Both the position numbers and the translations under genes were made by a program. From Ischnura elegans (lineage: Eukaryota; Arthropoda; Insecta; Odonata; Coenagrionidae), in assembly GCF_921293095.1 (NCBI RefSeq), contig NC_060251.1, positions 56,251,585-56,315,584 on the forward strand: DNA of 64,000 nt, written 5' to 3'. Below the pieces are notes generated by a model. That model did not search any database and was not told the origin of the DNA. It saw only the letters and a program-made list of their open reading frames with translations. Below are positions 7,801 through 41,740 of the stretch, in pieces (positions within the stretch are counted from its first letter, which is position 1; every line of letters starts with the position of its first letter).

Positions 7801-10800
7801 TTTGTGTCATATTTCGTTAATACCTCCGTTGTAAATGGCATCTATTTGCTGTTTACGGGGAATTTGAAAAAAATAACTAAATGAAATACTTTCTGCCTTA
7901 TTTCACTCATGGTTCAAAGACAACTCGTTAAGGTAAAATTTAATGGAACCTTTATTTTGACCTTCACATATGACCTTTAAGTACGCAAGAAAATATGTAA
8001 AAATTTTAATATTTTATTTTTCAAACCCGAGCAAAATGCAAGAAATTACTCTGTACATACAACGGTTTTGAAAATAAATAAATCCGCAATGCATGACAGT
8101 ATCCATTCAAGATATCATCGGGGGATGGAAGCAATTTTGTGATTATTCCCGAACAAAATGATGAAAGAGGGGAAAGTAAACCTCCATCATAATATTTCCG
8201 GTCTTGCACTCAAAATTTATTACACATATTTAAAGTTCCATTTCCATGAACCCAGCAGGTTAATTTATTCCAACATTAAAGAATAAATTAAACCCATAAC
8301 GCAACTTTTTACACTAAAAAGTTTAAGAAGACGGGTGCGTTGAATATTTTAATGCTATTTAAGATATGGCAATATAATTTTTTTCATGAAAAGAAATACT
8401 TTAAAACGGAACCAGTCCAAGAGGCAATAATGTCGAGCCAAACTGGTCGTTGCTCGATGATTCCGCTGCAGATAAGGCCTTACTGACGGTAGCCTTCCTT
8501 AAATTAAAATACCACCCAAATGCCAGAGCATAAATATGGAGGAAAACTTCCGCAACCAGTTGAAAAGTAGTAAATCAATCGCCATAGATTTTCTAGGGAT
8601 TTCCGTCTAAGGTCAAAAGGCCTTGCTACACGGTACATTAACATGCACGAGTTAATGCCTGTTTGCATGAATGACTTCTGTGGAACGGAACATGTGCGAA
8701 TGCATGAACCAAATTAGAACAGGTTCTATTTTCTGTGCATGCATTCGCTCAAGTTGAGTGGTTACACGTTGTATTTCGGTGTTCATTCACGCGTTCATAC
8801 ATTTAGACATAAACTTGTATGTGTAACCAGGCCTAAAGAAGCGATTTCTTGATAATATGTAGATTTGTCTAATAATGTATTTGTATTTGTACTGTATTTA
8901 TTTTGCGATATCTCTCGATAAAACCGAAAAAATATGCTTGATCGAATTAGTGCAATGATTAATGCAATTTTAACACGCAGTATAATGGAGTACGATAAAT
9001 TTCAACCTAAATGGTCTAACGAACGTACCGATCTTCGTCTAAGGAATATATGATAAGTAAAATATTATTACAAAGTATTAAATGAAAAATCAAGGAACAA
9101 AGGAACCGATTAGATGTGCCTAAAAATACTTTTGCTGGCTTTGCGGAGCAATGGTAAAACAAATCATGCTTTAAAAAGACAAAGTTGTGATAAATTCTTT
9201 CGTGGATTCCGCTGCTTCGAGATTAATGAGTCCCAAATCATCTTTATCTGCCCTTCCTTACAATATGGCCTTAAAATTTTATGAAAGTAGTCATTTATAT
9301 AGGCTCTCAAAGATCTTGGATATTCGTTTCAACCACCAACAAATACGAGTATACTCACTGGTTAATATGGGGGAATATGGCCTGCATCACGTTGTAGGTT
9401 TGGAGCGGCAGCCAGCACAAGGCGAAAAGGGCCACGACGATGAAGAGCATCTTGATAACCTGCAAAGCAATAGGGGTATTAGTGGACAATACTGAAAAGG
9501 AAAGGTCAACCATGTGTGCATAACTATCAAATGGAAAGATAATGAGGCATGAATTGTGAAAGCGCCTGAAAGTGAGAGGAAACCAACGCAGTAAATTTTC
9601 ACAGCTTTTTCCTATCCTTAACAAGGTTTCGACTACCCCACAGTCAATATGAAGATGAATTTCTTTTTTTTTTTTTTTAATCACATCCCCCGTAAACAGC
9701 ACATAACGGCCTTTTACAACGAGGGTCTCCAATATTAACAAAGTACAACACAAACATCCATGCCCTGGATAGGGATCACCTACCCAGGCGGGATTCGAAC
9801 CCACGACCTACGGTTTGGCAGGCGAGAACTTCACCCCACCGCCACCGAGGCAATTTGAATTTGGTAATTGCCGCGCAGGCATATTGAGCATTAGGGTTAC
9901 TATGAAACTTGATGGTCATAGGCGTAGCTTTTAAAATCCATTTCAAAAATAAGAAAAATGCGTCAACTGACAATTTCCCTGACTTTTTTAATTGCCTGAA
10001 TTTAAATTTACCTGAATTTTGTCAGGGAAATTGTCAGTTGACGCATTTTTCTTATTTTTGAAATGGATTTTAAAAGCTACGCCTATGACCATCAAGTTTC
10101 ATAGTAACCCTAATGCTCAATATGCCTGCACGGCAATTACCAAAATTCAATGCCGGAATTCAATGACGTTAGATGAAAGGTAATGACGAACAGCCAATTT
10201 TCTTTGGCATTATGTTGTCAAAAAACAGGAAGTACTTGTATACAAAATTATAGAATACAAATACTTCAACGCCCTTAAATGCATATTGAAGGTATTTTTT
10301 TTTAAAGATATAGTTAATTATAAATTTATTAACCCATTATGACCCAATGTTGCTTCAAAGCAACATCAAAAACGTATACATTTTAGCTCTATTTAGGAAA
10401 TATCTAAACAACATATTATTTTAGGGTGTAAATTTTAATAACGAAATATTGATCTGCCTCGATAATTATGATTGAGTGCAAAATTTTCATCTTTTCAGAA
10501 TGAAAAATCTTGAAATTTGATTTCTTTCTTAAGCAGCTCTGGGTTATAAAGGGTTTAGTACTTTGAAAATTTCAATAGAGATGAGGAAATAAAACTTTGC
10601 CATGAACGCAACATAATCTTCGAAATAACTTCTTTGTGACTAAAATTTGAGTCAACAAATTTCTTTTAAAAGGTGAAATTCGTGTACAAGACCTATAGCA
10701 AGTAATTTTACAACAGTGAACATATATGTCCATATTACTATTAAAATTAAATTCCTTCAAGTAGTAGCGGAATGGGCACTTGCTTAGCCCAGTGTAGTCT

Positions 10801-13800
10801 AATACTTAAATATTATTTTGTGAATTTCTAGTATTTACTGTATTAGTCCTGTCTGGCTAATCTTAGACTGTTTTGTTTAGATAATTTACTTTTGAATTTA
10901 TAAATTATGACGTATCATGAAGATACGCACCAAGGTACCTAGAAAGTAGGCTAAAATCATATTATTTTTTTGAGGCTACCTAAAGCTTCCAAAATATCTT
11001 TGTATGATATATTTGTTTTTTTTAATGCAATTTATGGAAGTATTAAACTAGTAATTGTATGGTCATTTCGGATGCATGGATCAGATGCTTCATTGGGACA
11101 TATTGTACCGGTCCCGATGCGTCCAAATATATCGGAATGTGTAGAGGAGAGCGGAAATGTATAGCGACACTTCCTTCAGGGCTGCGTAGTGATTTTGCGA
11201 CCAGATAAGTGAAAGTAGTTCCACGAATCGACGGCGGAGGTAGAGTATGAGATTTTTCAGGTTTTTCTTGGAAGCAGTCTAAATAAGCATTGTAAAAGGA
11301 TCGCCGATGAGGAAAATTGGGCTTAGCAGATAAGATAAGACGAATAACAAGGAGAATGTCTGGCTGCAGTACCTTCTCTTACTGGCCACAAGTTCTGGAA
11401 TGCAATATCTTCGTCTCCGAAACACAGATAGTACTAAATAGATTTTTTGATGGCCTAAGACAAAAAGGAACATCTGTCGTAACATCGAAAATACGTCAAC
11501 GTTCTTTCGAAACATTTTACATTACCTTCAAGCGTGAACGGAGGTATCAATTGAGTCCACAACAAACAATTCCCGTGAATTCCATCCCTTCTCAATGTTT
11601 TTTTTTGTTTTGGGATACACTTTCACCCTCATTATCCCATTTACCCCCTACAATTCGTTCATGTTTCCATAGCACAGTGGCGTAATCGACTCTCAACATC
11701 ACTTCATACGATGAAGAAGGTCAGGAAACTTACTATTACTAGGGATGAAGTAATTATTTTTTATCTATTCGTTTAGTCCATTAGTTTTGGCATTGCCTAA
11801 TCACGGTGCTCTCAAGCTGAAAGATGCATATTACTTAAATATTAGCCACAAGCTTAATTGCAGTGCATCAGGTTTGTAATTACATTAAATCGATTTGTTT
11901 TTGTTTGAACTTGGAAAAAATGATAGAAATGTGTCAAAACTGACCGTTAGAAGATTTAACCGATGAACTTTGATCGCCCTGAGGCATTCGTTGAAATAAA
12001 TTGAAAAACTTATAAACATAGTGGGCAATGCTGCCGACTTTTAAGAGTACGAAATCAATTATTTGTGAGTTCACTTCGTAGAATGGTGACGTGAAAGATT
12101 CAAAAATATTTTTTTATTCCACACAGTATTTATTTTAAAAAACTTTACCGATTGAAAAAATGTTCTGTCAACTCAATGTCCTGAAAATACCAAAACCGGT
12201 GGTTTTTTAAAATAAATACTGAATAGAATATAACAAAATTTATTTTTGACTCTATCATTTTATAGTACGATTCAGGACACATCATTGTACAAGTATCCAT
12301 TTTCTAAGTTACCAACACTTAACCCGTGACATTCGGACATGCATACAATTATATTAAAATTTCAAATGAAAGTGGCAAAAAAGTGCTTTAAATCATTCCA
12401 CACAGTACAAAAAAAATATCTCAAAATAATGTCGACCGATATTTTGAACCGCAAGGCACTAAAATTATTAATGATTTCAACCGATTCGGGCGTAATTAGT
12501 GGAAGTTCGACACATGGAAATAAAAGTTAGTCGCAATTTTCCACAATAATTTAATGCGTACGACGCGTTTCGGCATTGCGCTAAGGTCGGTTAAAACTAG
12601 AGTAAGTGGGAGAAACCTGCCCCATCGCCATGTTTACAACAAATTCTATTCGTTACAAAATCCACTGAAGCAATTTAGATTGTATGCCACACATAAATAA
12701 TCCATAAACCATGACCTTCAATCATAGTACTCACCTATTGCGCCTAAACTAAAAAAAACTTAAACAAAACACATTTAGCGTAGGTATAGAATTTTACTGA
12801 AACACGTGATTTCTAATTGATTCCTAGCACGATCTAGTCTAGATCTTTTTCTAAATGTTTATATTGTATGTTCTATGTATGATCTTTTTCTAGATGTTTA
12901 TCTAGATGTTTTATTTGTATTGTGTGGAATGATCTAAAGCCCTTTTTTGCCACTTTCATTTGGAAATTAATATAATTGCATATACGTCCGAATGTCACGA
13001 TCTAGTGTCTATTGTATGGATTAGCTCAACTGGGCCATCCTGCCCCTAAGGCCAACGTGCCCCGGTCTCCCCTAATTGAAATAAAAATTCATTTTCTAAT
13101 CTCAGTAATGTTACGTAATTTTTTAGCGCGAGGGAAAACTAGAAATTTTTCTACATACCGTTATACATTCTCTCTACGTTCTAAAGTACCAATCTTTTAA
13201 CTTCCGAGAACAATATATTCTCCTCTACCATCGTATGTAATAAATGACAATTAATAAATCATATAATCTTGTGCCAGATGATGGCTCTGTGAGATGGAAC
13301 GCGTAGTACGCATTTAATAATAGTGGAAAAGTGCAACTATCTTCTATTTCAATTCTAAAATTCCACCTATTCAATATGATGAAAATATTCAAAATTCATA
13401 CCGGCTGAGGATGGAGCCATGATAAGCTTTCCGAGGAGCTTGTGAAGACCACAACAACTTAACGATCATTTTTCCATTCTGTCACCATAGCACGTCACGA
13501 GATTTAAAACGGTGCCATAAATCTTCCAGTCAGGCGAGCCAACTTTACACAATAGCCTGGAGGCCCATTCTTTGCCAACAACACAAGGCATTCAACCCAT
13601 TTGGTGGAACATGGAGAAACTGAAGTAGGACATGGACCAAGGGGACTACATAGAGGAGGCCCAATTCCATTCAATAGAAGGATGATTTCTGTTGCCAATT
13701 CGGTCGCATTTTAATCGGTTTTCAAAAGTGCCCGCGACGCGGTGATGAGTGCAATGCAATCCAGTTTTTATCCAATATTTTTCACCATAGTGTTTGTAAT

Positions 13801-16800
13801 TGGGAGGAATAGCATTGATAGATCACATTATAATGTGATCTATCGGTTAATACGGTTAATTTAAATACGGTTATCGGTTAAATTCGGTTAATACCTATAA
13901 TTATATGTAATATTTCTAATCCTGCCGCGTGAACGGCGGTGAAATATTTATTAATTGCCGTGAGAAAAAATTCCCCTGGACCGAGAATCGAACCACAGAC
14001 CTTGGCTTACCGGGCCAACGCGTAGACCACTGCGCTATCCAGGTACCTTAATTCCTGTTTTCCTGAGTACAATAATATGAGACTCGGTACAATTTCCATG
14101 GGAATTAAGTAACCTGGGTAGGTTAGTGGTCTGCGCATTAGCCCGGAAAGCCGGAAAATTTGATAAAAGAATAATAATCTATTGTTTATGTTCTTTGCTT
14201 ATTTTTACCTCGAAATTTTTATTTGAATGAAAATGTCTAAGATACGCATAGAAAAGCTTATTTAAATGATTGAGATCAAAATTTTAAATGCTTATAATGT
14301 TGTACTTTTATATACTTGTATGTGATACCAATACGTTTGAAATTGTTCCCATTAGATGTATTATATATCTGTTCGTACCAAAAATTAAGCAATAAAAGCT
14401 TATTTCATCGAAAGCCGAAGATCCGAAGTACGATTCCCGGTCCAGGGGAATTTTTTCACATGGCAATTCCCATAATTACCTTATTTCCCTGCAAAACTCG
14501 GATCAATTTTTCCGTCAGCGACGCGAGCGGCGACTTCTGTAAACTAATTTAAATGCTTGGTGGGAGAAAACATATTGTTAGGCTTACTCTTTTGTAATAT
14601 TCGTGAGATGGACCATATTGAAGTACTTTTACCCGGGTGCCTCGCGTACCCATCGTTTAATTTCCTAGAGCTACGTTTTTCTTCCACCATCGGGTGTTAT
14701 AAATGACAAAGTATTTCATAACGATGACGGGAAACCATTTTTCAATAAGATATTTTCCCACTCGGTATTTTGATAGAATGTGTCAGTCTGAAGGCCACCG
14801 TTGGACGAAACTATGGTCCACTGAGCTGTAAACCAAGTGTGAAAACGTGGCTTCGCCCCACACAAACGATACGTTTTTTTTTATTTTCATGACGGGGAAT
14901 GCCAAACGGTTATGTGAATTTCAACCTTATAATAATTCAAATCATAGCAAATTTACCAATCTCAACTACACTATACAAATTCTAAGAAGGAAAATGAATC
15001 CGCCAATAACCGCATTTACAAGGTGCATCATAAGATTTAGAAAGTTTTCGGGTTTTTATTCGTGCAATAAATGGCAAGTTATTTCATAATTGTGACATAA
15101 AACCATTTTTCAATAACATATTTTCCCTCTCGCTTATTTTGATAGAATGTGTCACGCTGAAGGTCGCCGTTGGACGAAACTACGCTCCGCTGAGCCATAA
15201 ATCAAGTGTGAAAACGTGGCTTCGTTTCACACAAACGAAATGATGTTCATTGTCATGATTAGAAAATGCCAGATGGCAGTGTAAATGCCAAACTTATTAT
15301 AGCAGTTCACATCACAGAAACTTAACAATTTCAACATTTAGGAGGAAAATGAATCCGCCGATAACCGCTTTTACAAGGCGTATTATAACAGAAGTTTACT
15401 TGTTTTCCTTTCTCTACATATACATCTACATATTACCCTGCCAGCCAGGTACGGAGGTGTTTGGCAGAGGGTGTCCCATCACCAAGATGCACCAGGGGAT
15501 TAAGATTTACTTCCACTAACATGCACTAAGCGTCATGTGGGCTATGTTTGACTTGTAATATACCATATCCTACTTATAAAGGTAATCTGACTATGACCAG
15601 TGGTGTAGTTGGGCCGGTATGGCGTACCCCCTAAAATCCAAACTATTATATTAAATATCCAATCCAATATTATATTACATTATAAATTATAAGCGTACCG
15701 GTTAAACTACCTTTTAACATATATAAAAAATAGCCCTACTGTAAATTGTCCAATAGATTTCAGAAAGAAAAATCGGAAATGATTATTTACTTGATCAGAG
15801 TGGCACACCTTGGAACTAAGATAAGAGTTGGAGTTAGAATTTTAATCGCGGCCGGATGTATAATACATGTTCAGCTGTTGGCAATCTTTGGTGAGTACCG
15901 CCTAAATTTTTCCCAACTACAGCACTGACTATGACCATGCAAAAAATGCTGTTTGAAACTCGAAGAAAAATTCAGGAACATGCATTAAGGAATACTTAAT
16001 TTAGTAAGCTACACTACCTGTCAACTATCGTATGCTTAAGCCCTAACACTGCCGTTGTAGTGTTTTATCGATCTCGGAAAAAACTACATCCTAAATCTAT
16101 CTAACCGAGTTAAACTCCCCAGTTTTACTGGTATGATCTGATCTATTCTTCGTGCTTAAAAATTACTTGTCATGACTGGGATTAAGTCAATGAGCTTTTA
16201 CTTAAATTACTGCTTTCTCTAGTTTTTCCCAACCTTATCGTAATTATTATAATTTATACAGTGCCTCTAGATTTCAGAAGTTTTTTTAAAATTAGCAGCA
16301 TTATGAACCTTAAGAAAATTTTTAACTACTTCCAAAATAGTACCAACTAAATGAATGCTATTTTTTCTGCAAGAATCCAGAGCCTCACTGACAACTTCTG
16401 ATTTAACTATGTGAAGCCTTTCCATTATGGAAAATAAAAGAATAAAATTTGTAAGGTTCACTAACATAATTAAAAAACATGACCAGGTTCCATAACATTT
16501 TTACATTTTCGTGTCCTAAGTTAAGACACGAATATGTAATTATGTTATGAAACCCTGGTCGTGATTTTTTAAATATTAGGTGACCCTAGCGGAAATTTCA
16601 GACTTTCACGCTCTTAGGAAATAAGTATTTTTTCCATACCACCGAAAACAGTCCTATACGGCCTTTTACATCGGAGTCAGTAACATGTATGCAAACAATT
16701 TCACGAGCACAAACAACCATACCCTGGATGGTTACCCTGGGGGTAACTTACCCAGGCGATACTCGAACCCGCGACCGCCTTTTTGGCGTGCGAGGACTTT

Positions 16801-19800
16801 ACCCCACTGCAGTAACGGATGCAGGTAAATCTCAAGTGGGGAGCCCAAAAGATATTTTTAGCTACCTTGACTTTTATCGTAATGAAAAATAATCAAGTTG
16901 CATGCAGAATTTAAGATTAAGAATTTAAGTTTTATTTTAACTGATTTTACGTATACACAAGGCAATGCTATCTTATGATATAAAAAAGTTACAATTGTGG
17001 TTCTGCAATGTTCGGTAATGCGGGCAGCCCCGCAAGGCGGGTGGCGCGCAACATGCGCCCCCCATATGTATCCGCCACTGCCCCGCCGCACCCGAGGCCA
17101 GCAGTATATTAAAGAAACGGTGTAATTGCGTTCTAAATAGAGAAGAAAGTGTATCATAAAGTAATTTCTTCATACTTGCCTTCTGACAAAATCATAAAAA
17201 AACATTTGAATAAAATATAAGCAAGAGTTTGGTACTTATTTACTCGTAATACACATTATTGTTTAACACACGATGTCTCTTTTAGAAAGCATTTAACATT
17301 CTTCATGCCTATTAGGCTTTATTTATAATATTTTTGCCTCCTTATGTTACACATCTTTGGTTCAGGTATGGATGTAACTTGTTTTTAAATCTATCTTTAA
17401 GTTAAGAATAAAAAAAATGTGTGGAGTCGATATGCCTCGAGTGAGTAATCGACATGGAAAAATCGAAACTTTTAGTTCAAATTAATGAGTAAATAGTAAC
17501 ATTTGAGATTAATATTGCAATTTTCGTGAAGAGCCGGTAATTCAACGTTTAAATCGATAGCTTATTTATCAATGTAGGAGCAGTATTTACGGAGCATATC
17601 GATGGCTACGTTCTAACATCACGTATCTCAAATTCGGCCGGTTTGAGACAGGTATCTTAAACAAATTGTAATTACACGAAAAAAATAAAATACAAGCAAA
17701 AAACAACCCTTTGTGTGCAAATGAATGCTTCTTTCTCAGTTTTATGAACTTTTGGTTTTTAATTTCAGAGTACAAGTTAAACTAATTAATCGTTTTTTGC
17801 CCTCCTGAAAAGTTGCTATTTTTAAGATACGTGTTAGCCATCGATGTATGGAATGACAGAGAAAGATCTTTCTGTAATAATATATATGATATAAGTGTAT
17901 CTTACAAAGTTTATTTTATTATTTTCCATGTTGATGTAACCTTAAGAAGTATCTATGTAATGAAACTCGGGTCGCGCTTTTTTAAATAAGTGAACCCTAT
18001 AAATTTTATTCTTTAATTTTCCAATATCCAGAGTATTATTCTGTAGTAGGTGATCGGAGCTCCTCAAACAAAACAATTCTCTAGATTCCAAGAAAATGAA
18101 CCGGCTCCCAAACCCCAAATGTTTGAATTTCACAACATACCTCGACCTTTACCTCGCCGACCTCGGTGGCGGCGGGATAAAGTCCTCGCCTACCAAATGA
18201 GAAGTCACGAGTTCGAGTCCTGCCTGGGTAGGTTGCCCCTTTCAACAACATGATTGTTCGTGCACGTGTAAGTGTTTAATTTGTTGCACGACCTGATGTA
18301 AAATGGCCAATATATGCTGTATTCGGTGGTTTGGGAATAAATAAAAATGTAAAATAGATAACTACTAATTCTTTCTTCATAGATATTAAGATCTGAAACC
18401 TTTATATATATAAGGGAGCGTCCATTGATTACGCGAGGTGATTTTGCAGATTTTTGGATCACCTTTTCCCCCCTGTATGAGATATCGTGAAATTTGACTC
18501 GACCCCTCCCTATAATCTCACGTGAGCTTGTTCAAAATGCGTATTTTCAGTGCAAATAAGTTAATCTGTGCTTCATTACGTAGGATTAAAAAGAAAACAA
18601 TTTGTTCTAGATTAGACATTTAAGATTACTGAGATCGCAATTTTACACTGTTAATTGCGGAAAAAAACGTGATATTTGCCACGACCTTAATCTCCCACGT
18701 GAGATTGGGTGAGAATCGGCTTGAACCCCTCGACCTCCCCCCCCCCCCCCACACTAAACGCCTCACGTAATTAATGGATGCCCCCTAAAAAGAAAGAATT
18801 TAACTCTGCAACTCAGCTGATATCTCCCCTCTCTTGCGTGGGTGCCGGGTGCTGTGAATCGTTGGGAGTAAAAGAGGACACATTCAGTGGGCCGTGTCGT
18901 AACAGGTGTCGTTTGCACTGGGCTGCGATTTATTGTGTTAAGCGCTCCATGTCTCTCTCCCCCCCCCCCCCCCCTTACGATGTGCTGGTGCTCTTACGCA
19001 ACAGACGTCACGGATCACCCTGGGTGGCGTCGAAAATCTTTTATGAGAATTTCAAGTGGAGGGGATGGTGCTCCCGTTTTTTTTTTCACTGCCTCTTGGT
19101 CTAACACCAAAAACAATGACGCACTTGGTGGCGGTTCTTTTGAAGGAGGTGCTGTGATTTGCTCACTTCAAAGGGGCACAAGGAGACGACATAGACGAGA
19201 GGGTCTCTATTCGAACACAATCTGCGGGACGTTGGTTATTTGTTATAGATCTGTTGCTTAAATAAAGATGATTTACTGAACATTAGCCGGCAATATTTTT
19301 ATGTGTAGAATAAAATCCTTTCCCATGGATAAAACGAAATCCCCTTAAAAACAAAATAAAATGTTGGTTCCTGAAATTCGTTATAAGCGAATTTTACTGC
19401 ACATAAGTTCTCATTAGTGCAAGTGCGTAGAAAGAAATATTGTCAAATAATTTCAATAAATTTTTTCGATTCCCTTTTCCATACTGTATCCAATGATGCA
19501 GTTCGTTACTGGTCTTGAGACGAGCCGATAGACGTTTGAATTGTTTAAGAGGCTTGTGGATTTGATGACTGAGACATTTGATGACATTGTAGTGTCATAT
19601 GTGATCGAGTATTGTGCCGATAAGCGTTTCAACCATTATTAGTTTCCTTGAGTATTTCGTTGAAACGTCACTTTTCGGGAGGTAGTCTGCCTGCTCGTAG
19701 GGTCGAGGAGACGGTCCTGCGTGGGTGAGCTGGTCGCGGATTAGCGACCCTTCGAAGTGCTTCGGCGTAAGTGCTGACCGCATGTCTCCACTCTGTCCAG

Positions 19801-22800
19801 AGCTTTGCCTCATGTGCCGTAAATACTTTTTTTGTATTGCTCTAGCTCATTTGGGAGGAAACTCTTTTCGGAGGAAAGCCTTTTCATTCTCCTCTCGACA
19901 TATGTTGGAGGAGAAAAAAAACTCTGAGAGTTTTTTTATTTCCTCTGAACAGAGTTCTCCTCCCAAGAGTTTCGGAGGTAAGGAGTTGGGAGGAATCCCT
20001 CCTGACTTTCCTCCAAGGAGGACTCCCAAACCCTGTTGAAAAGGAAGAAATGCTCACGGAGCACCTTCATAATCGCTTGAATTCTTTGAGCGGGGTTGAT
20101 TTGACGGCAGGCAATGTGACATTGTTGATTCACGTGATGTAGCATATTCATCTACATCTACGAGATTAGGTTCAAGCCACTACCTGGGTGTGTGGCACGG
20201 ATTGATTCCACACCAGTCATGCAGCACTCATCTTAGCCTTAACCTTTAAGTTCAAAGGGACATATATATCCCAAATTTTTTAAATTATCTCAAAATTAAA
20301 TTAGAAGGTGTATTATTGAAAGAATTGGTTCTATTGAAGAATAAGTTATTGGCTTCTAGTTTTCAATTCTTTTCGTGATACCCTATCCACAGAGTAGATA
20401 TATACAGAGGGGACATTAGGTGGCTGTACCATAGGTTTCTATGTAATGAAAAATGCGCACGGCGGCCATATTGAAAATGAGTAAAATTATGCGGTAAATT
20501 CAAACCAAATAGTGCTAACGACTTACCATCCACCGAAAAAAGAGGGTTTAAAATTCAAAGTAGCCTAATTATTTCTTTACTAATAAAGATAGAGCAAGGA
20601 CCGCCAAATCGCACGCACAAATTCGGCAATTATTATGTAAATAACTGACAGTCTTGTTTTCTAAATCCGACCGACGACATCGAATCACACATTCCTTGGA
20701 CCTGCGCCAACACCTCAAGTTCTTATTAAACTTTTTCGACAATTTCATTTCCCATGAAAATAATACTCGAATATAAGTTTAGTTTCTTCGATCAGCAATG
20801 TAACTCAGAAAAAATATGGAATTACTTACCTCACAGGGTCTTTAGGGAAACTGAAGAAACTCAACTTTGCTTCCGTCATGCCCGCATTGTTTTTGCAGTT
20901 AATGGCTGAAAATCAAGCAAAACCTTTTCTTCTCGTCTTATTTTCCACTTCCTTCATTTTCCACGTTTCTTTAAAACACTAGCACACTACGTGAAAGTAT
21001 TGAAGAGTGGAGGTATAAAAAAAAATTCGTGCGACAACACTCCACGCCAAGCGCGAATGATAGCAACGATAGCAACCAAATAGCAACTCAAGCCACGTTT
21101 CCTTATTTAGAACATGGTGAAATGCGCAATAAGCTGATTACCGCCTTCAGCCGTTTTGTCCTCTCTGTATATCCCTACTCTGTGCCCTATCGATATCGTT
21201 GTTTCCACATTGTTAAGAACTTTCACTTGAAATGCTGTTTACGGAGTGGAAATTTGATAGTTTATAGCAAATCAATTGCAACAGGACTTTCGGTTTACCA
21301 TTTACGTGTACCTAGTTTGTGGAGTTAGTACGAAAAACTCCGCACTTGTGCTTTAATTTTCTCAGAATTAGTGTTTTTATTTAATGTGACACATATGTCC
21401 GTGTGGACCTTAGGGGGGCGAGAATCGATGTTATTTCACGTCCTAGACTGTATCTCATAAATCATAAGAGATGTCGATTTCATATTAATGGTTTTCTAAC
21501 CTACGCATTAATATTAGCCTAAAAACGTATTTTGTCATGCAATCTAATGGCTGTAATCTTTATGGACCTCAGAGGGTCAATGGGTTGTTTAAGAGAGGGG
21601 CAATAGTAAGTCTACCGACAAATAGGGCGACGTGCAGTCCACAAGCAAGTTTACGTGGTGTTTCGAAGCTGATGGTGGTTATGAGCAGTTTATTGGCAAC
21701 CAATTGCACTTAGTAGTGCAACTGGAGCACGCGCCGTTATTCAAGCCACGTGTCAAGATGTCGCCATGAAACATCATAGACCAGCAATCATGAGATTTGT
21801 CCGATGCAGCACAGCACTCAACTATACTATCAGTTAATCTTTTCCTATTTACGCTTGTCATTTGTTTTACATCCTTGATAACTTGACCCAGATGACTCAA
21901 TCAAGGCCATCCATTGCCTTCATTCCCTTACACTTGCACTTCGGTGAAACTCATCATTAAACCATATACCTTTTAATGGATAAATAGATATATCGAAGAT
22001 GTCGATCACCACCTCCAAATATCATACCATATCAGTGTTGTGATAGAAAAATCGATTTCGATTAAAATCGAAAATCGAGTTTTAATATTCAAAGATCGAA
22101 TAAATCGACATCGAGCCATGATCATCGAGTTTCCATCCAAACTCGATGTTTCAATTTCGATCTTCACCATTTCGTTTGATCTCAGCAAGGTCACTACCGG
22201 CCTACGACAACGTCATCCGTCTCGAATGAAATGCTATCATTTAATGCCGGTAAGTTTGGAAAGGCACGCCTTCGATAATAAAGAAAGCATCGCAATGACT
22301 TGATCTTAAAAAAAATATTATACGTAGGCGAATGGTTCCATACGGTGATCTCAAAATTTTAATGTGCGTGCATTTGTAAATTTTAATTATTAATAATCCA
22401 ATCATGTATTAGGAATAGATTTGTTGGTATTTTTCTACGACTCAAATGTGTTATTTGAGTATTTTTTTCGAATAAATAAAGAGCATGATTTTGCTCGAAC
22501 TGTATTTTTTCAAATACGAATCGTCGACTTTTCCGACCAATCCATCTTTTGATTCAAAATTCGTAATTTGCTGAAAAATCTAGCTTTTCATTTCGGTTAA
22601 AAATCGATTTTGACTGTCACTTATCCATCACAAATCATGCCTCAAGATTAAGCAGATTAAATTGTCCCGTCCGCGGAAGGGAACGCAATACTATTTTCTA
22701 CTGGTCATTCTTCCCACGGCGAATTACTTGTTCGAAACATACGCCATCCTTTTAATATTTTCTGGGTACATGAAGTAGAACTTTGTCATCTTTTAACTGT

Positions 22801-25800
22801 ATCCCAAATTTGCATAGTATTCTCAAAACATTAATATGATAAGTATCCACGGCAAGGATCGCAGCAACCGGTCCCTAATAAATTTTATAGATTGTATTGC
22901 CGGGGAATCATAAGCCGCATTGAGGGAATAAAAAAGAAAAAAAAATAATTAAAATATTTGAGAAAGAAATTTTATCTAAAAAATAAATAATATATAACAA
23001 TAAATAACCAAAAAAATAAAAATTTTATAATGTATTAACATCTGTTATGTTATACCAATGTAATGGCAACCAAAAAGCCAATATTCATGTTTTAAATATT
23101 TTAGTTATAAGTTTCTATTTCACACAGACAACCCAATACTCCCACAAGAGTACCGTGCACGTGCGCCATTTTTAATTCAATCATTCTTAACTGGCTGGTT
23201 GGGGTGAGCCAAGGCTCACCGGAACAGCATTACCAGGACCAGGACGTGACTATTAATAAAAACTAATCGATACGATCATCATCATCATTATTAGTTTACA
23301 ATCCAGGTACTGATTTGACGCAGCTCTCCTATCCGCCAACCTTTTCACTGCTACATCTTTCTTCTCTTTTACATTCTTTTTAACTTATCCTATGTAAAAA
23401 ATGGCCTTCATTCGAGGCCGTCCTTTGCCCTTCTTCCCTTCCAACTGTCCTTCTACGATTGTTTTCACCAGGCCATCATACCTCGAAATATGGCTAACCA
23501 CGTTGTCCCTTCTTCTTCTTAAGGTTTCTAGAAGACTTCTCTCACCCTTCTTAGCACTTCCTCATTAGTTACACGGTCGATCCATTTTATCTTCATCATT
23601 CTTCGGTGGCACCACATTTCGAATGCTTCCACTCTTGACTTCTCTGCTGCTGTCAACGTCCAAGCCTCGCTCCCTCAGAGAAAATTTTTCCATGTGTAGC
23701 ATCAATTAGTACAATTGCGCAGAGAAAAAGATAAAGCATCGTGGAAACAAAATAAAGCAACAGAGGGGAATACGAGTTTGGAAGTAACGAAGAGCCTAAT
23801 CAAGAAATAATGTTGGTTGGCTCATGGAAGGGACATATTGTACCATGGAATAATCCCGTTAGTAAATGCCTAAAGCAGTCAATGCAATTGAGTAGAGGTT
23901 GCTGGAGACAGCGGGGTAATTTCAAGCGGCAATTCGTGTCACTTGTGATTGGTAGGTAATTAGAGTGGGTATTTGCTAGGTGAGTGTAGATAAGCTCCTT
24001 CGAAATGGGACCCGTTCACAAACAAGTGGCCACGTGGTAATTGTGACACGCTGCGACATATCTTGACGTAACTATGACGTTGAAAACTCTATGAGAAAGT
24101 CTGTTGGTTCACAACAGCTGTACAACTCGACTTAGCGTATTGATTAGTAAACCAATGCCTAAGTCAAAGATGAAACCAACAAGAAAGGTTGTGTCGTTTT
24201 CTGAGAGTCACGTAAAATATTTAAGGTCCTCTAAAATCTATTTCAATATTGATGTATGGTCTGACGTGTGATGGGCAAAACATTTCGGTGTGGGACACAT
24301 TATCTTAAGTAACGCCGAGTAAAGTTGTTATGAATGGGGCTTTACACTCATTGGAGGAAAGCTAATAATCGTTTATTCATTCATTATAACCGTGCATTGA
24401 TTTTATGCACCTGCCGTCAGCACCAGGTCTCGAAGTTTTCTTTTCTTATCAGTTTTTCCAATTTTCAATGTTTTCTGATCCGTAAAATGCCACTCCCCTC
24501 ACGGATGTGTTTCACTGCCGTGTGCTTGTCTTCATTTTTATGTTCCAGATTCTCTTTCCGTCAAAATATCATAGTTTTATGCAGTGACTTCATGGCAAAT
24601 TTAGCAGTGCCGGAACGCACTTTCCTGAGCTTTCTCTGGATGTGAATTATTACTTTGTGTGTGTTTTATTATAACAAGCCATTATTTACATTTTATTACT
24701 ATTTTTTTGTCTTGGTTACGAATACATGAATTAGAAATTTTGAGGCAACAGATTTGATAAAAATCGTTATTTGACTATTATGTCTTTTGTTTACTAGTGC
24801 CGGAACAGCGTTCAGGCACGATGACACCACTGGTTTTTATGTGAATGGAGCTGCTAAAGGCTCCCTGTCCATCCTTAAGCATTTTATCTTAAGCACTCGC
24901 CGCCAGCACTAGATCTCGAAGGCTTCGAAACTTTTCTGATGACATGTTCTAATTTTACATGTCTCTCAAAGACCATAGTTTTATATCCATAGCGTTTAAT
25001 ATATTAAAAGCAAATTTTATTCATATTTTCGATTCATTCAATTTATCTAGGGGAAGCTTTCTAACGCGTTCCGCGGCAGGGAACTCCTGCCTTCGCTGTC
25101 ATCCTTTGAGTGGCAGTAGTTTGAATTGTAGCAGTGGCTATTTCTGAAGCCACGAAATGAGAAGATGAGAAAAATGGGAGTTATAGCTGAGATGAAGCAG
25201 CGAAAATACGTCTTCCTGCAGAAGAATTCCGACCATGGAGTTCCTTTCGACAGATAAATAACTACGCTATAAATATTTCACCCATCATTCCCTTACAATC
25301 TGTATAATATCGAAGAGGAATAATTCGGACCAGAAGGAGGACTAGTACGATAAAATGTCTTCGTGCCGATTTGACTAGTAGATATGTTGATCATCATATT
25401 CTAATCCTTAAGGTTTTCAAAACTACACAGTATATTTCGTTATGGAATACATTTACACACTTCCAGAAGTTCAATACGTCCTCTATTCAACATATTTATT
25501 TATATTATACACTCGTTGAAATATTCATTTATTCATTTATTTTTATTTATTTCATTGCCATATGCTCTGTTGGATATTCTACTGGAGGCCACCAGTTATG
25601 CCCGTTGGTTTGGGGAAAAAGGGTGTTATGTTATAACCTACCTCCTGACTTGGCTAAATCAGCACAAGAACATGAGAATTTCTATCGGCCTGAGCGCCGA
25701 GTAATGACATATATTAAGCACTACTGTTTTGCTGATACTTCAACTGAACATTCTGTAAAAGAGCCCTGGCCCGGGGAAGGAGGTGGCCGGATTGTGGCCT

Positions 25801-28800
25801 CACCCGGGCCAGGTAAAATAAAAGGAACAGTTAAGTCCACAGCGAAAATCAATAAGATTCTCCTCCCATTCTTCGCCATAAAATTTAAACCAGCACTCCA
25901 AAGAAAATAAAAGCATCGAATTTTATGTTGAAACGAAATTTCAAGGTCATACGTGACCAGGACGTACCATAACATACGACTTAATTTATAAAACCCTTGC
26001 CTTTTGCAAGCTTTTTGATGAGGTTGAATAGCAAAGAATATTCATTCTTTCGTGAATAAATGTTAGAAATCCTATTAAAATCAGATTATTTGGCGGAAAG
26101 CATGCATATCTCTTGTTTTTTCTCAGCATATGGCTTTGAATAATAGTTTAAATCACAAAATAATGACTATGAATCAGCTAATTCTAATTATACAATTGGC
26201 AAGAATTATTTATTACGTTTAGAAATGATTTGATGTTATTTACCATGCATTACTTGTTTCCCTGAGCTTTTATTTTACATAAGTACCAATAAATATATGT
26301 AATGCTGTCAGGAAAATATCTTATTTACTGTTATTGTGTAGTAACGGTAGTAAAGTTAAATCTATTTCATAAATGTGTGTTTTTCGGATGCACCGAAAAC
26401 CTCTTATATTTTTCCATTGAAACTGGAAGAAATAGCCAAATATCACATAAAAAAGCACGCAGCAATATATTCCAATGATCTTGAGAACAAGTAGAAGCGA
26501 GTCAGAAGAAAACCACTTCTAACTGGAGATGATCTGGAATTTATAAAAGGGATGGAAATCTTTTTAAGGCCCATCGTTAACTCCCTGTCAATGCATAAAA
26601 CGTTTCCTGCTTCAAGCCTTTCCCTCGAACCCAAATGGCCACGTCGAGATTTTTCCAACATAATCCAAACATCTCTCGAGTATAGTTGCCTATTCCTTTT
26701 GGGAATAAACAGAATGCATCCTGCTTCCTTCTCACGAAGATTCAACCACTAACATGGGAGAATTTACGAAATATACGAAGATATTTCATGGGTATTTAAA
26801 AAAAATCCTTCGAGTCTCACCTAATACGTGTAAACATAAATGTTTTTAATTTAGTGCTGACCACAGCATGTTTTTGAACAATCGTATCACGTTAATAGCC
26901 GCAGGGTACCCGTTTACACCGCAGATAGATCGACGATGAGAGTCGATTACAGACATTACGGATGTTGGTTTGAGAAACAAAGTACCTGTCATTTTCATGA
27001 AATTTAATCCTAGACCTTACTGTGAATATTACATAAAGGGGCCCTAACTTAACCTTTCAACCACGATTAATGTCGACCATGATGACATAAAAACTTTCCT
27101 CCATAATATATGCGAAATATGTATGTATTTTAGCGAGCAGTAGCGAACCAAATTCCTCTATCAGAATGATATTTAATAAGATTCCCTTTACTCTACGACC
27201 TAAGACTATGTCCAAGAATAATCCAAGGCCTTGTCCAGGACCAAACCCCAAATCCCACAGTCTATGTCTTTACAATTTATTTATTTATTAAAATATTCTA
27301 CCGATTGAGGTAGGTTTCCATGGAGTATTTAAGAGGTATTCTAGCTTCATCCACTTTCTTCATGTATTTCTCTTTTCAATTCACAATAAGGCATACTCCC
27401 TTTCATTCTATCAAAAAAAAACCCATTCTCTTTCTTCCTCTCCCTCGTTTACCCAACACTCTACCTTCTAACACTTTTAAATCTTGAAAATGACACAATG
27501 CGTTGAAACCTGGGTCGGTTGTTGAGTTTTGGAATTTTTCTTTAGTTTAAAAAGTGTGGAAAATACAATTAGCGCTCTTTCATCATGGGCATATCGAACT
27601 TCAACCAAATCAAGCCTGAAACGATTTTACACTGTTTTGAACATCCCCTCCACGCTAAGTAATCGCTTCATCCATTCCTTCTGTCCTCTCCGTACCTCAT
27701 CCAGAAGCCCTTACAATAGTACATGCATGCTCATTGGCATCACGGAATGAGTAGATGCATGGCCACCTATAATACAGGCCGGAACATGGAATTTTGGCAA
27801 CGCTGTGCCGGGGTGCGATTGTGTTTGCTTAAGAGCATGGCGACTTATGCGTGAAGAGTGTCCGTGTGGCCTAAGAAGCATTAAATCTCTTGTTAAAAAG
27901 GCAGAACTGGACTTATTTTGTGGATATCCCATTGGCTAAAGGTACGTACAATAGTTTAAAGATATTTTTTGGGAGCTGAAGGAGGAAAATCACGTTTATT
28001 ACTTCAAAAGTATTGTGATCACATGCCGGCCGGCCATTAATGGAAGGGAATTGAGAGTGCAACAATACTGGTTTTAAATGGGGAAAAAGAATTATTTTTC
28101 TGTACTGTGTTTTGCCTTACGGCAAGTAAAATAGTTAAAAGATATTCTCAGTGTATTGTGAGTGGATATTCAGCAGTATTTCATCCAAAGCATTGCGTCT
28201 CTTGGCGGCCGGCCACGAAGGAACATTAAGAGAACACAAATGAAACGAAGTGTATTTGTCGGGTATTTAAATGCTGCGTTGTTTTTTATAATATTATTAT
28301 TCTTGAGTTAACAGTGATTGCTATATTTGGTTGCCTTATGAATAACTATGTGTAGCTGTATCTATAATAACGTCGTATATTATTGAAGGAAGAATGGCTA
28401 CTCATTAACTCTATTAATGTTTCTAGGTACTAATGTCATTCATATTTTCCAAACTAATCATGAATGCACTCCTTTTTTTCTGTAATCAGCGAAACTATTT
28501 TTATTCATGCAACTTTCCATTGTTTTCATTTAAGGTGCCCAAACGTTATCGTGTGCCATATTGCAGAAGCAACTACCTATCCACCAAGAACAAGGGGTAT
28601 GTGACTGTGTTCCAGTTCACCAAAGATGAACGCAGTTGACAGAAGTGGCTGAAGAATATCCCTCGGAAGGATTGGAATCTTTCTTCAAGCGCAATAGTTT
28701 GCGTCAAGCATTTTGCTGAGCAGGATATCCTACACCGTGTAACTTACATGAATAAGAACGTTGAAGTGAAAAGTTACGAGTTAGATCGCCTAAAGTTGTC

Positions 28801-31800
28801 CCCTGGTGCTACTCCCACAGTGTTTCAGGCCCTCTCCTCTTCTTAAAACTTCTTATTGTGATCAGTGAACCATGAAAATCTGTGAAAATAATTTAAGTAG
28901 ATGAGTTGTACTTCTAAGAAATGAAATCAGGAAATATTGTATGAATCAGTGGAACAGGAAAAGACTGCTGATGAAATGATAATATTTATCATTATTTCCG
29001 AAATACATGCTAATTTGACATCTGGCCGCCTTCTACTACTGAAGGTACATTGGAAAATCAATTGCTACTAAGTGATACGGAATATATAAGTGGTATTTTG
29101 AACTAATTCATCTTTCCCTTGCAGGTAGAACTTCTTGTTGTGATCAGTGAACTATGAAAACCTGTGAACATAAGTAGATGTAAATCTTGGAAATGAGATC
29201 AACAAATATTTTATGAATCGGTGGAACATGAAAGAACATTGATGAAATGTCAATATTTGTTCTCTTATCGATAAGGGCACCTTAATTGATAATTATCCGC
29301 CTTACAATATTCTAGGTATATTGAAAATCCAAGGGTACTGAGTGATATATCTATACGTGGTATTTTTGAACTAATCCATCTTTCTCTTGCAGGTAAAACT
29401 CCTTATTGTGATCAGTGAAGCATGAAAATCTGTGGAAATAATTAAAGATGAAATGAACGAATATTGTATGAATTAGTGGAACATGAAAGAACTTCTGAGG
29501 AAATGACTATATAAGTTTTCATATTGAAAATACTTAGTAAATTGACGTCTAGCCGCCTTCCAATACAGTAGGTATATTGGAAAATCCATGAGTGCTGAGT
29601 GAAATTACATATATGTATGTAGTATTTAGAACAATATAATAATTTTCTCTGCAGCTAAAACTCCCTTTTGAGTGAACGTTTGTTAGTGAACCTTGAAAAT
29701 TTGGCCATATAACCAATTATGAAGAACCTGTTGTGGCTACCATTATCGAGATTAATTCAATAATTTCTTCTCGTTTGTAAAATTTGATTTTCTTTTAATA
29801 AGTATTGAGTTAAATGTTAGTATAATGTTATTTGTTGAGATATTTTTCCAATTCGGAAGTCGTTAATATTTCATTATACTGATCTTGTTGTTAAGAAATA
29901 TTAGATTGAATATATATTTATCTTCCTTGTGGCTTCATATTTTTTAAACGTTGTCCAATTTATATAATGCTAAGACTAGTTTTTTTTTATATCACATAGT
30001 TTTCTAATTAGCCATAACATTTGTACTGATCATTTTTTTCCATCAGGTAATGTGGTGCCTGTGAAACTGATAGCTGTTGCTGGTGACGGTTCATCGGTGA
30101 ACTTCAAATGGCAAGATCTATGGAGGTTGTTTCCAGCTGAAATTGAAATTAAGAACCTGTGGCAGCTTTTATTTATTCCACTTTCTGGAGTAATATTTAT
30201 GCTTTTATGGCCATGTCTTGTGACATTGTGAGGTTGTTTGACCTCTTCAATATGAAATGTTTACCGGAAAATGTATATATCTGATTTTTAGTTTAAATAA
30301 ATGTTGTTGAACTTCATAAATTATTTTTCTCTCCTGAAATACCGCGACGAAAGGTGCTAGAAAATAACGAATTACTTTTTAACATGTTAATTTTTTAGGT
30401 TATGCAGGGAGGTGAAATGATGTTTATTTAAAAGCCGCTCTTTATTTCTAAGTCAATAAATTTTATAGGGTGTTCTTCCATATTAACAACCAATGGGTTA
30501 AGTAGTAAACTAAACGGTATTTCCTTCTTGGTCTGAACTTCTGGGACGTCGATCGCAGTACTTAAATATATTTCCGTGAATAATCTCTCGTATCCCTTGG
30601 CTTGTTATTAGTTCTCACGATTACTTTTAATAAATAGCTGTTAAAATACGAAATATAACTACTCGAATAACTCAACCCTACCGTAATTTTTAGCTTAACT
30701 TTAGGGAAGGTGAACGGAGGTCCAACCGTATTAACGTCAACAGCTGAGAGGCCGATCCACCGCACCCCAGGCGATGTGCAGAGTAGCACCCCTGACGTCA
30801 CGTAAAGCGCTGTCGCCAAATTGCATGTTCCGGCCTGTATTATAGGTGGCCATGGTAGATGCCTTCATTTCATTTCATATCTCGTCCCGTCTCTTCTAAA
30901 ACCGCTATAAACCTGGTTACCACTGGTTATCATACCGTAAGGCCTATGAGTAAGCCATGAAGCCTCCTCCCTCTCAGCCAATAGTTCCGTAGCACCCTCA
31001 TTGTCGGCAATTTCCCCGCATTCATCAATTGTATCGAGGACAAGGTATTCTCCATTTCACCTTTTCCGCGCGGTGCATGCACCGCCCGTGAGCTACAGCA
31101 GCCGCGAGCAACGTCCTTCGCACTCAGCTCGACGACGGGGAAGGACGCGCGCAAACAAAAGAAGGGGGAGAGGGCGAAGACGTAAAATACGACCATCGAG
31201 CCACGGCAAGCGATCGTGGTAGACACATGTGGAACGGACGAATACGGCCCCCTCTCCTCCTCAATAACGGCCCCCTCTCCTCCTCAATAACCCACATGCC
31301 TTGCATTTCATACAATGGTTCACGGAATCGTGCATTCACGTCCGTCGGCAGCGCCGTGGTTTTCTGTCACAAGGTTGTTTCCATAGTTTAGGGCTGAACC
31401 CAGTTACGCAACGTCTTTTTGTTTCCATTCATGTGCACGCAAAGTATGTCGTTCATTTCCACGGAAAATACTTTTCCTCGTTTAAATGATGTTGCATTAA
31501 AATTTGAAAACAATCGGCCTCAAGACCTAACAAATAAAAGCAAATAAATTTTGATTAATACTTGGTAAAATTTTTCAGATTCGGCGGCATGTCAAAAAGT
31601 CGTTTTAGCTTTCGTTGCTACGTTTGATTAAAACCCAATCATTGCTTGAAATTGCCAACATTGTTCATCAATAATTTCAACGATTAATTGCTATGGTGCA
31701 TCTAATATAACGAATGACCATATTATTCTTTCAGAGAAAATCCCATTTTATTTTTTTTATCTTCAGAGAAGGTACCTTTTCATTAATTCTTACATCTTCG

Positions 31801-34800
31801 TTTAATTAATACTGAATTACATTTTTTTACTTTTTTACCATCTGCTTCATCTCTCGCGTTGGTAGCTAAAATATAGGGTCATCTTAAAGTAATGGTGCGG
31901 TTTTAGTAATTTATAGGAAGAATGTAGGGGATATCGGACTCACACCATATGATATCTCCTCTTGAGGGTAAATAAAATACCTTTTTTTATCCCACGTTCA
32001 ATCAAATGCGTTATCTCAACATAATTAATGAAGCTATTACAATCATTAACCAAGAAATGCTAACTGGGTGAGGACCACTGAGTGCTTTGTTCAACTTCCG
32101 GGTCCACCCTTCAGACAAACCAAACAAAAATTGAAATTTGGACATAATATGTTATGTTATATTTAAAATAAATGCGAAAACTTCGAAAGTGATATCACCA
32201 TAAGTACACTCACCGAATAACATTACATCTTCCATGGTTTTTGTCCATAAGGGACAATTTAGAATAAACTAAACATAGAAGTTTATACCTATTTTGAGTC
32301 ATTGGCATCCGGGGCGTATCTCGATATATTTTAGAAGAAAACGGAAATTTTGTTTCGCTGACTCGATTAACCGAAGCAACATAGGTAATGGATTTATAAT
32401 CATCTGGAAAACTACAGTGAATTTAAATTTCTAAGGAAATTTCATATGATATAGGATGAGTAATAATAACTTTAATGGAAAATAACCACTCGGAATAAGG
32501 GCACCATTTTTCATTACTATTACATTTTTCTTCATAAATGATGAGCAAGCAAGACCGCATTACCCAGAGAGTTCTATCGGATTCGTCATCTTCCTTGGGC
32601 TTTCCCCAAAAAAAATGTATTATCGGAGAAAAAATGTCTTTGACCTTGACAGTAGGTCTGATAACGGGCGCTCGAGACTTTAAACCCATATGCTCTGGCC
32701 TCTAATCCTACCGGGAAACGGTTGTCATGTCATTGCCCCAGAAAGATTCTCAGCAGCATTCCTGTACCGAAGCGGAGTGCCTTGTTTCCCCCCTATTGGA
32801 TTCGAGGCAGAAAATATTTAACACTCAACAGTAGTCTGTTCAGCAATGAAAACCTTTGTGTGGGAATGCTGGTACTAGAGAAGTGTTTGCAGAACCTACT
32901 TGTAATAATCGTTAATGGCTATTGATAATAGAGGATTATGGATATGGGCAGTTCTTATTTTCCATTACTTTTGGAGTTTGGAAGTAATTATTGCTATTAC
33001 GGAGCATAGAATCACAAAGCGTACGAAACTTCAGCCCTCAAGTCAGTAGAGTAAATTAATTAAATCCTTGGACGGCCAAGGTCAATGGTAAGTTGGGTAA
33101 ATTAAATTATTTACATAGGGGCATCATATGCTTTTTTATACACTTAAAAACAAATGCGAGATTCAAAAAATACTGAAATACGACAACACAAGTACGTAGA
33201 TAGGAAGTACTACTATAGCTCTAAGCGGTGAGCGGTATAATCCGGGTTCGAATCCCGGTCAAGGAGAATGATTTTTCCTCCGCGGATTTCCGCTATTTTG
33301 TGCATTGGGGGTCTGTAGCCACCGTGGTTAGTCCCGGTATACTACAATACCCCCAATAAATCCTTGCCAACCCAAGTTAAAGGCTACACCACGACGATAT
33401 GTAAATGTTGCGCCGCGACGCATGATGAAGTGTAATTTTTAGACTCACCCTCTTCTTGTTCTTGAGTAGGTTGGCGTCGCGGCGCCTCTGCGCGGTTCCG
33501 GGCGTGGTGGCGCCCCAGAGGCGCATGCCCACCTTGGCGTAGGCCACGGAGATAACGGCGAGAGGACAGGCGTACTGTAAGGCCGCCAGGGCGTGGCGAT
33601 ACGCGTTCATGGTCCAAGGGGAGATGCCCACGTTGCTGCAAAACGGCTTAGTCCATTCCTCAGGCCACTCACCGCCCACCTCCTCCATCGGAAACTCCGT
33701 CTGCACACAGTGGAGGACGAAGGTTTATCGTGAATATTTTTCTCATCGTAAATTTTTTCTTCACTTTTTTCTCATTTATTTTCTTCCTTGAATTCATGAT
33801 TTATCATGTACTTGCATTGTTGTAATTTAAAATTCTTATTTTTGTCTTTATTACACTCTAGCACAGTAATTAATATACATTTCAATACAATCTGATTTGT
33901 TTTCCTGCTATTAGATTTAAAAAATGTTTATAAATCTGCGCCAGGCGTCATTTAAGCTAGCAAACGATGGTACCTCAATTCAGGTTAACCTACGGAGTAA
34001 TTATACTCCACAGTGCAGTTTCCAAATATTGTGTACACATGTATATACTTAAAGAGTATATTTAGCTAAGGTAGAATAATGAGAATTATAGCTATTTTTT
34101 ACCATTACTATTATTTTATATTAATTATTCGTATATTGCTTAACAGTAAAAACTATATATGGCATTCATTGTGATCTTAATTTAATCTTGGTGAGGTACC
34201 ATGGAATAAGCATGCATTTACGGTATGACTCGCGTTAAAATCACGCACCTGCTCACGAATATTGAAAGTTGGGGTTCTTAAGTAGACTGATTGAAAATGT
34301 TGTAACCCACCGCGCATTTAAATTAGTTTACAGAAAACAACACTCGGCCAGAGCTATTCGAATTTCATGGAAACATAAGCTGTAATCAAGGCTATCAACC
34401 GAAAGATATGTCCGAGATGAAGCGTGGAATTACCACGGTGTTATTAATATGTTGATGATGTTGTTGTTACCACGATGCAATGAATTACGCCATTATTTAT
34501 CTCACAGACGCTCCAATCTCCAACGCTATAACATTCATAACTGTTCAGTGCTAATCCTCACCACTACGAACAATAAATAGTTAATATTAAGAGTGAATGG
34601 ATGACTGTCAGCTCATAACCGCGCTGCGGACATTTTTGAAAACTGATTAATATGATCACTAAGTGGCAGCAATAATCAAGCTTCAACAGTACGGACTTTA
34701 TATTCCCCTAGAACCTAGGTATGATTTTTCGGACCCCATGTTGAAAATCATCGTGCTTAGAGTGGATAGCACGATTGGGCGAATTGGGTCCGTAACTCTT

Positions 34801-40924: not shown

Positions 40925-41592
40925 AATAGGGTGGTTTCCTATTATTTTTTTATTGCCTAAACCGTAAGATTATAACTCCTGGAGTACGCATTTCACGCTT
41001 TTAGATTTTTAAATGACGATATCTATTTTTGGCGATTAAATGAAAAATGGAAATTTTCAAGCGCACGAAAACACGACGGCTAAGTATGAATGCTGGGAAA
41101 AGCCCGCGTGACGTCATTCTGGTTCCCGCTGCCGCAAGTGAGGTGACCCTGGGGCGAGGATATGTGCGCCGCTGCGATGCAGGATGCTAGCAGGTAGCAG
41201 AGTACCCTGCTGGCAGGTAGCGCTTGGCTTAAATAAGGATTATTAATACCTTATCAAACGAAGGAAACCTTCCGATCATGGGCAGTTTTAATTGGTGATT
41301 ATTAAGAGATGTTTCCCTGAGCTCTGTGCCTCATGCATGCATTGGTAATCTCAGACGATGTCAAACTCCTATCTACTCGTATAGAAACTAGGTCCCTGTG
41401 ACGTCACATGGAGTGGCATCGCATGGGCGCCAATCTGGCCTTTTTTCAAATGAGGATAAAATTGACCCTTGCTATTCGTCTAAACCGGTATTTCTAAAAC
41501 CAAATAATTTGTATATTATGAATACACTAACGGTGGGTAACGAATCGCAATGAATGCCTTTCGTTTTCTTTGATGAAGGAAACTAACTTATT
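40925..41592 (+). mobile_element. MITE family A, copy 2 (668 bp)
   Basis: Same ends and full-length similarity to the copy at 4961, in the same orientation. Internal landmarks include TACTCCTGGAGTACGC-type and GAGCTCTGTGCC blocks. Confidence 0.85.
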
Positions 41593-41740
41593 CTTGCACG
41601 TACAACATTTTCTTGGGAATTTGGTGAGAAGCATATATCAAATAAATTGGAGTAACTCCCAACCGAACAACACTTCAAAGCCACCAATACTTTTTCATCG
41701 TCATCCACCAAACATACTGCGATGCGTAATAAAGCAGGAT

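Follow-up and report, generated by a model that had tools for sequence, protein, structure and literature searches.

P elements are best known from flies, and the superfamily to which they belong was listed, in one survey, for all of the arthropod species investigated (PMC6327564), so that a P element in a damselfly is to be expected; the patchy distribution among insects assumed in an earlier note on the DNA described here does not hold at the level of that list. The Drosophila P element carries a THAP domain and has 31-bp terminal inverted repeats (TIRs) and internally deleted copies (PMC7776569); at its 5' end, bp 53-63 form the THAP site (PMC3688188), and non-autonomous derivatives are already known in Drosophila (PMC7776569) and Anopheles (PMC1562414). 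We herein describe a 3,097-bp element at positions 27758-30854 of a 64,000-nucleotide stretch (the window) of the damselfly Ischnura elegans, located on contig C6, which is chromosome 6 by contig order. The element is very probably a non-autonomous cut-and-paste transposon of the P superfamily, which lost its catalytic part and was copied by a P-type transposase from another element. The earlier note, made from the sequence of the window alone, had proposed both the superfamily and a transposase made elsewhere in the genome.

Results

The two 31-bp ends of the element, which begin with CATGG, are exact inverted copies of each other, and the likeness between them, then interrupted by one gap and two mismatches, extends to approximately bp 44. 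When up to three mismatches were allowed, the terminus matched two places in the window, both of them the ends of the element, against a mean of 0.00 across 100 shuffles. The sequence GTAGATG stands on each side as a 7-bp target site duplication (TSD); equal 7-mers at the spacing of the element were found at 13 of 60,600 window positions. The termini and the duplication read in the earlier note were thus confirmed by the alignment, the shuffled control, and the other copies described below.

Genome searches covered the Ischnura elegans assembly (1,722,721,009 bases in 110 contigs). With the left 101 bases of the element as a query, 231 candidates were obtained, 40 of which were scored; 33 of these were 100% identical and seven were 99% identical. 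The outer 21 bases of the terminus occurred at 94 exact places (control, 0), comprising 40 pairs and 14 unpaired ends, and 34 of the pairs spanned 3,053-3,098 bp. Termini with up to three mismatches in 24 bases numbered 243 genome-wide (control, 0), the first 100 of which were listed. A terminus confined to this locus, which the earlier note had named as grounds for giving up its reading, is therefore not what the genome holds.

The 40 scored places were the window copy and 39 others, 37 of which were fetched; 31 had both ends within 3.5 kb, and, together with the window copy, 32 complete copies were compared. Six fetched copies stand outside these counts, three because of nested inserts (L049, L050, and L052) and three because the right end was absent in a read of approximately 9.8 kb (L029, L031, and L051). 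An exact 7-bp TSD was present in 31 of the 32 copies, all 31 being different, while L039 had none, and the two 31-bp ends were identical in all except L025, which had one mismatch. An 8-bp reading of the duplication (GTAGATGC, with one C shared) is possible in the window copy; since it requires a C at the eighth place, which was seen in 16 of 31 copies, it was rejected and 7 bp was taken as the rule. An 8-bp match at the CATG borders, the canonical form for Drosophila P, was found in none of the 31 fetched copies.

The THAP exon of the window copy is interrupted by a TGA at 28637-28639, and the same TGA was present in 23 of the 32 copies, with AGA at that codon in the other nine. The TGA-bearing copies form a single clade with a mean pairwise difference of 0.43% (0-0.65%), and the nine older copies without it differ by a mean of 1.37%. 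No substitutions were found within three pairs of copies (L012/L042, L028/L033, and L046/L047), the TSDs of which differ within each pair. Because the TGA is common to 23 copies of one clade, the frame was already disrupted when the last burst began, and these copies moved in trans; this looks like a recent burst from one founder that was already defective, and a moving copy accordingly had no need of an intact THAP frame of its own. The description of the THAP domain as dead in the earlier note holds in that the frame is broken by a stop codon; this stop is not private to the window copy and was inherited from the founder. Its proposal of a transposase made elsewhere is strengthened by the presence of the same stop at so many different sites.

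Read through the TGA, the THAP exon matched Pfam PF05485 with an E-value of 3.4e-15, and the part after the stop alone with 1.2e-8; a PDB search with this exon gave 0.16 as its best E-value and 0.46 for THAP2. The codon for the first zinc cysteine is replaced by TAT at 28547-28549, which was shared by 31 of the 32 copies. The exception, L020, has TGT (Cys), and a cysteine is also present there in the related transposase L061, described below. Among the nine older copies, the THAP frame is broken by deletions in L019 and L020 and open in seven, all seven of which already lack the first zinc cysteine. Forty-five of the listed THAP places (by count, e.g., C11:53715029), 89-97% identical, matched from residue 9 only; L020, in which the exon is one base shorter, is one of them, and these places may represent a subfamily sharing the L020 lesion.

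In agreement with the earlier note, which had seen no catalytic core, a domain search of all six frames read through stop codons detected no catalytic domain in the window element. A decayed closer relative, L062, is 86% identical at the DNA level to window 28441-28834 and continues past the THAP region with broken coding stretches that show 40-62% protein identity to residues 4-930 of L061. The tandem units of the window element (Table 1) start where the transposase coding sequence of L062 goes on, and because the likeness to L062 ends at window 28834, the catalytic part appears to have been lost at approximately this position. Since the ends are identical over 31 bp and the tandem units differ by approximately 25%, we infer that the ends were maintained while the interior drifted. 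The short open frame with the DGSSVN motif was rejected as a catalytic remnant: it had no Pfam or PDB match and no support against L058 or L059, and equally good alignments were obtained from 117 of 300 shuffles against L061 and from 43, 208, and 127 of 300 against the L062 frames.

A search with the P-type RNase H domain PF21787 yielded 678 candidates, and all of the 150 that were scored exceeded the curated cut-off, with frames of up to 926 amino acids (aa); by these counts, the genome is rich in P-type transposases. The corresponding THAP search gave 675 candidates, 150 of which were scored. Beyond the family itself and its near kin, it revealed a 50%-identical THAP domain in an open frame of 931 aa on C13 (L061), which contains both THAP (3.2e-17) and PF21787 (TNP-like RNase H N, 1.3e-12). 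This frame lies in an element of 12,504 bp with 23-bp exact ends and an 8-bp TSD; reading covered the initial 9.1 kb and the final 81 bases. The outer 21 bases of this element occurred at 18 exact places, including eight pairs of 2,291-12,504 bp; all eight have 23 exact bp, and the TSD is 7 bp in six, 8 bp in the C13 copy, and absent in one. The ends of L061 agree with those of the window element at 55 of 81 aligned positions on the left and 63 of 80 on the right, against 49 of 82 and 47 of 82 in the crossed comparisons. Inside this 12.5-kb element, the L061 frame is followed by an array with a period of 300 bp (L061/L063, C13 at approximately 20666500-20670100); tandem units are likewise present in the window family. 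A further P-type transposase of the damselfly, L058 (C10:104786300-104791200), has an open frame of 911 aa with helix-turn-helix, RNase H N- and C-terminal, GTP-binding, and THAP9 C-terminal domains.

Some sequences inside the ends are also common to the two families. The left block TGGCAACGCTGTGC-GGGGT is present in both, and the left subterminal block (Table 1) is a candidate binding site of the transposase or its THAP domain because it overlaps the position of the Drosophila THAP site. The right ends of both families have AGGGGT(C/G)CTAC at bp 62-72. The subterminal sequence GGGGTGCG was not significant alone, since 521 of 1000 shuffles also yielded a shared inverted 8-mer (52 of 1000 when bp 46-105 were considered), and it was retained solely because its place is conserved in the related family.

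Regarding the choice of target, the empty sites of 31 copies favour approximately TGG|GYTNARC|CCA. The preference amounts to 5.59 bits over 13 columns, whereas 2000 random sets, generated with a composition chosen by the analyst, averaged 0.94 bits and reached at most 1.81 bits. Most of this signal resides in a few columns, and individual sites show weak symmetry, with complementary pairs numbering 7 to 16 of 31.

The element lies in an intron of 24 kb on the opposite strand, which starts at 33448, finishes at 9460, and is bounded by GT and AG; the exons on its two sides join at LLKNKKR/VIKMLF. Three of the four minus-strand exon candidates matched 7tm_1 (1.8e-15, 2.7e-12, and 6.8e-6, the last of which is below the family cut-off), and the best PDB matches of the first exon were neuropeptide Y receptors (6.6e-12). 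The fourth candidate, the exon before the intron, had no family match and was assigned by reading. These matches and the intron ends support the location in a neuropeptide receptor gene given in the earlier note, and because the THAP exon is on the plus strand and the gene on the minus strand, the element is antisense to the gene.

Table 1. Features of the element and its surroundings, in positions of the window
Feature	Position	Strand	Remarks
Receptor-gene intron enclosing the element	9460..33448	-	exon matches, GT/AG ends
Left 7-bp TSD, GTAGATG	27751..27757	.	7 bp in 31/32 copies
Left 31-bp TIR	27758..27788	+	exact match to right end; 94 exact 21-bp outer termini genome-wide
Left subterminal block TGGCAACGCTGTGCCGGGGT (bp 38-57)	27795..27814	+	19/20 bases same in transposase-encoding family
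Broken THAP exon	28532..28846	+	frame closed by TAA at 28844-28846; PF05485 E-value 3.4e-15 when the TGA is read through
Three tandem units of approximately 260-280 bp and start of a fourth	28845..29730	+	73-77% identical; approximate borders
Short open frame with DGSSVN motif	30049..30231	+	likeness to second catalytic Asp region not significant
Right subterminal motif AGGGGTGCTAC, bp 62-72 from right end	30783..30793	-	AGGGGTCCTAC at that place in transposase-encoding family
Right 31-bp TIR	30824..30854	-	exact inverted match to left end
Right 7-bp TSD, GTAGATG	30855..30861	.	repeat of left flank

Elsewhere in the window, inverted repeats at 41300-43102, 46380-47003, and 9853-10151 are perhaps further foldback-type elements; among them are 293-nt arms that are 90% complementary and 131-nt arms that are 97% complementary and separated by 37 nt. 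At 31244-31291, 0.4 kb past the element, a 23-bp unit is perfectly repeated in tandem (2.1 copies).

Discussion

The ends of P elements typically begin with CA(T), and those of Drosophila P with CATG. The inverted ends of the damselfly element also start in this manner, its TSD is within the 7 or 8 bp of the superfamily, and the encoded protein has an N-terminal THAP domain, which is broken in the window copy. A P-type RNase H core, which is absent in the window copy, is present in L061, a relative with matching ends. Membership in the P superfamily, as claimed in the earlier note, is supported by this combination, and the relatives were found to encode a P-type rather than an unrelated transposase.

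In the mechanism that we propose, the first exon of the ancestor would have coded for a P-type transposase's THAP domain, which binds the ends. The catalytic portion would have been lost, with approximately 2 kb of other sequence, including the tandem units, taking its place. Both ends would have been retained, and a P-type transposase from another element would have spread copies to many sites. The most recent and largest set of copies, among those compared, descends from one founder already bearing the THAP TGA, so that the THAP product of the element itself was not needed.

Several findings weigh against this reading. Among the sequences read, which did not extend to ten of the 14 unpaired exact ends, no element bounded by exactly these ends encoded a transposase. 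All six exact pairs above 3.1 kb proved to be copies of the same element that carry inserts (for the 18.5-kb pair, reading covered the outer 4.5 kb on each side), and each of the 94 exact ends was at least 15 kb away from any of the 150 scored RNase H matches among the 678 candidates. L052 and L049 were considered and rejected as autonomous versions because the insert of the former reads by eye like a long interspersed nuclear element and that of the latter contains no frame longer than 106 aa. The L061 frame had no Pfam match at E <= 0.01 for the GTP-binding (PF21788) or RNase H C-terminal parts, while PF21788 was detected in L058 with 1.3e-45. The first 31 bases of the L061 ends have 24 in common with the window element and seven that differ; the intact relative anticipated in the earlier note was thus found with similar ends, which are not identical. 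Furthermore, the compared copies were selected by their likeness to the left end of the window copy, and the sample therefore over-represents young copies.

Regarding the source of the transposase, an autonomous element of the window family with exactly these ends, which was lost, is absent from the assembled individual, or is among the unlisted or unread termini, is a candidate to which we give slightly less than an even chance. The 243 near-exact termini, the existence of L062 as a decayed longer relative, and a sister terminus differing by one change at 32 exact places are consistent with such a helper; however, none of the 40 exact pairs holds a scored transposase domain despite the very recent movement of the family. 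The sister terminus, CATGGCCACCTTTAATACAGG, was read at one place, L060 (C2:106675278-106680277), which is a sister element 93.9% identical to the window element, and at least 14 of its 32 places are within 1.5 Mb of a chromosome end (by count).

The transposase of the L061 family, acting across families on ends with common outer bases and a common subterminal block, is a tentative second candidate that we consider possible. It has the advantages of an open frame with both domains and of an end-for-end likeness that includes the left-right asymmetry; however, seven of the first 31 bases differ and the THAP domains are approximately 50% identical. An L061-like P-type transposase may have bound and moved the ends of the window family, and such cross-mobilisation is plausible.

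Truncated P proteins repress movement in flies. Seven of the nine older copies keep an open frame for a short THAP-only protein, which could repress movement by competing for the ends. Since the founder of the burst had lost this frame, the loss of a self-made repressor might have released the burst lineage, which would still have used the transposase of another P element. We regard this idea as unlikely because the seven open frames lack the first zinc cysteine and a single event gives no statistics.

An origin in another THAP-bearing superfamily is highly improbable: Kolobok transposases also bear a THAP domain, but Kolobok is described with TTAA duplications and AG ends (PMC6004289), in contrast to the varied 7-bp TSDs and CATGG ends found here, and a P-type RNase H domain is present in the relative whose ends match. 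Equally improbable is multiplication by segmental or tandem duplication, for which large repeated stretches of the X with regularly spaced P-type matches seem to be present, because 31 distinct TSDs in 31 copies indicate spread by transposition and refute it for the compared copies. On the X (C19), matches at 119.80/121.82 and 120.38/122.40 Mb show a spacing of approximately 2.023 Mb in two separate searches, which suggests that a very large segment close to the end of this chromosome is duplicated.

A non-autonomous P element moved by the transposase of another element thus remains the preferred reading, and it represents very recent P-type transposition far from the flies. It is a clean natural case of trans-mobilisation, in which an inactivating mutation is common to copies at many different sites. 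Distinctive here are the direct record of a recent burst of this type, in which the copies share a disabling mutation, and the association with a family in which a frame is open. Since the genome holds related long open P-type frames, which transposase moves which ends is directly testable. The exact terminus had no matches in the bacterial/archaeal and viral sequence collections (0 and 0), and none of the 39 and 6 stretches that fitted the THAP pattern in these collections was confirmed as a relative. The literature searched did not contain the outer 21 letters of the terminus, and none of the titles listed by a search on P elements with Ischnura or Odonata concerned this family.

Among known systems, Drosophila P shares the length of its ends with the damselfly element. 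The earlier note had pointed to this length, which does agree; it implies no special link, given that in the related damselfly family 23 bp are exact. The damselfly element differs from Drosophila P in its 7-bp rather than 8-bp TSD, other end letters, lack of catalytic sequence, and internal tandem units. The P elements and P-type miniature inverted-repeat transposable elements (MITEs) of Anopheles gambiae, another non-Drosophila insect, are similar in having 27-31-bp ends and non-autonomous derivatives; however, their TSDs are described as 8 bp, and the MITEs retain the 5' and 3' portions on either side of an unrelated centre (PMC1562414). Zebrafish Pdre2 has ends starting with CAT and a THAP9-type transposase, but its ends are 13 bp with 8-bp duplications (PMC10983969). 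In its duplication, the damselfly element resembles Galileo, a member of the P superfamily in Drosophila with TSDs of 7 and sometimes 8 bp (PMC4168063), whereas the unusually long, Foldback-like ends of Galileo (PMC3688188) are unlike the 31-bp ends described here. The target pattern of the damselfly element also differs from the AANGT/ACNTT of Galileo and from those given in the same source for P and 1360 (PMC4168063).

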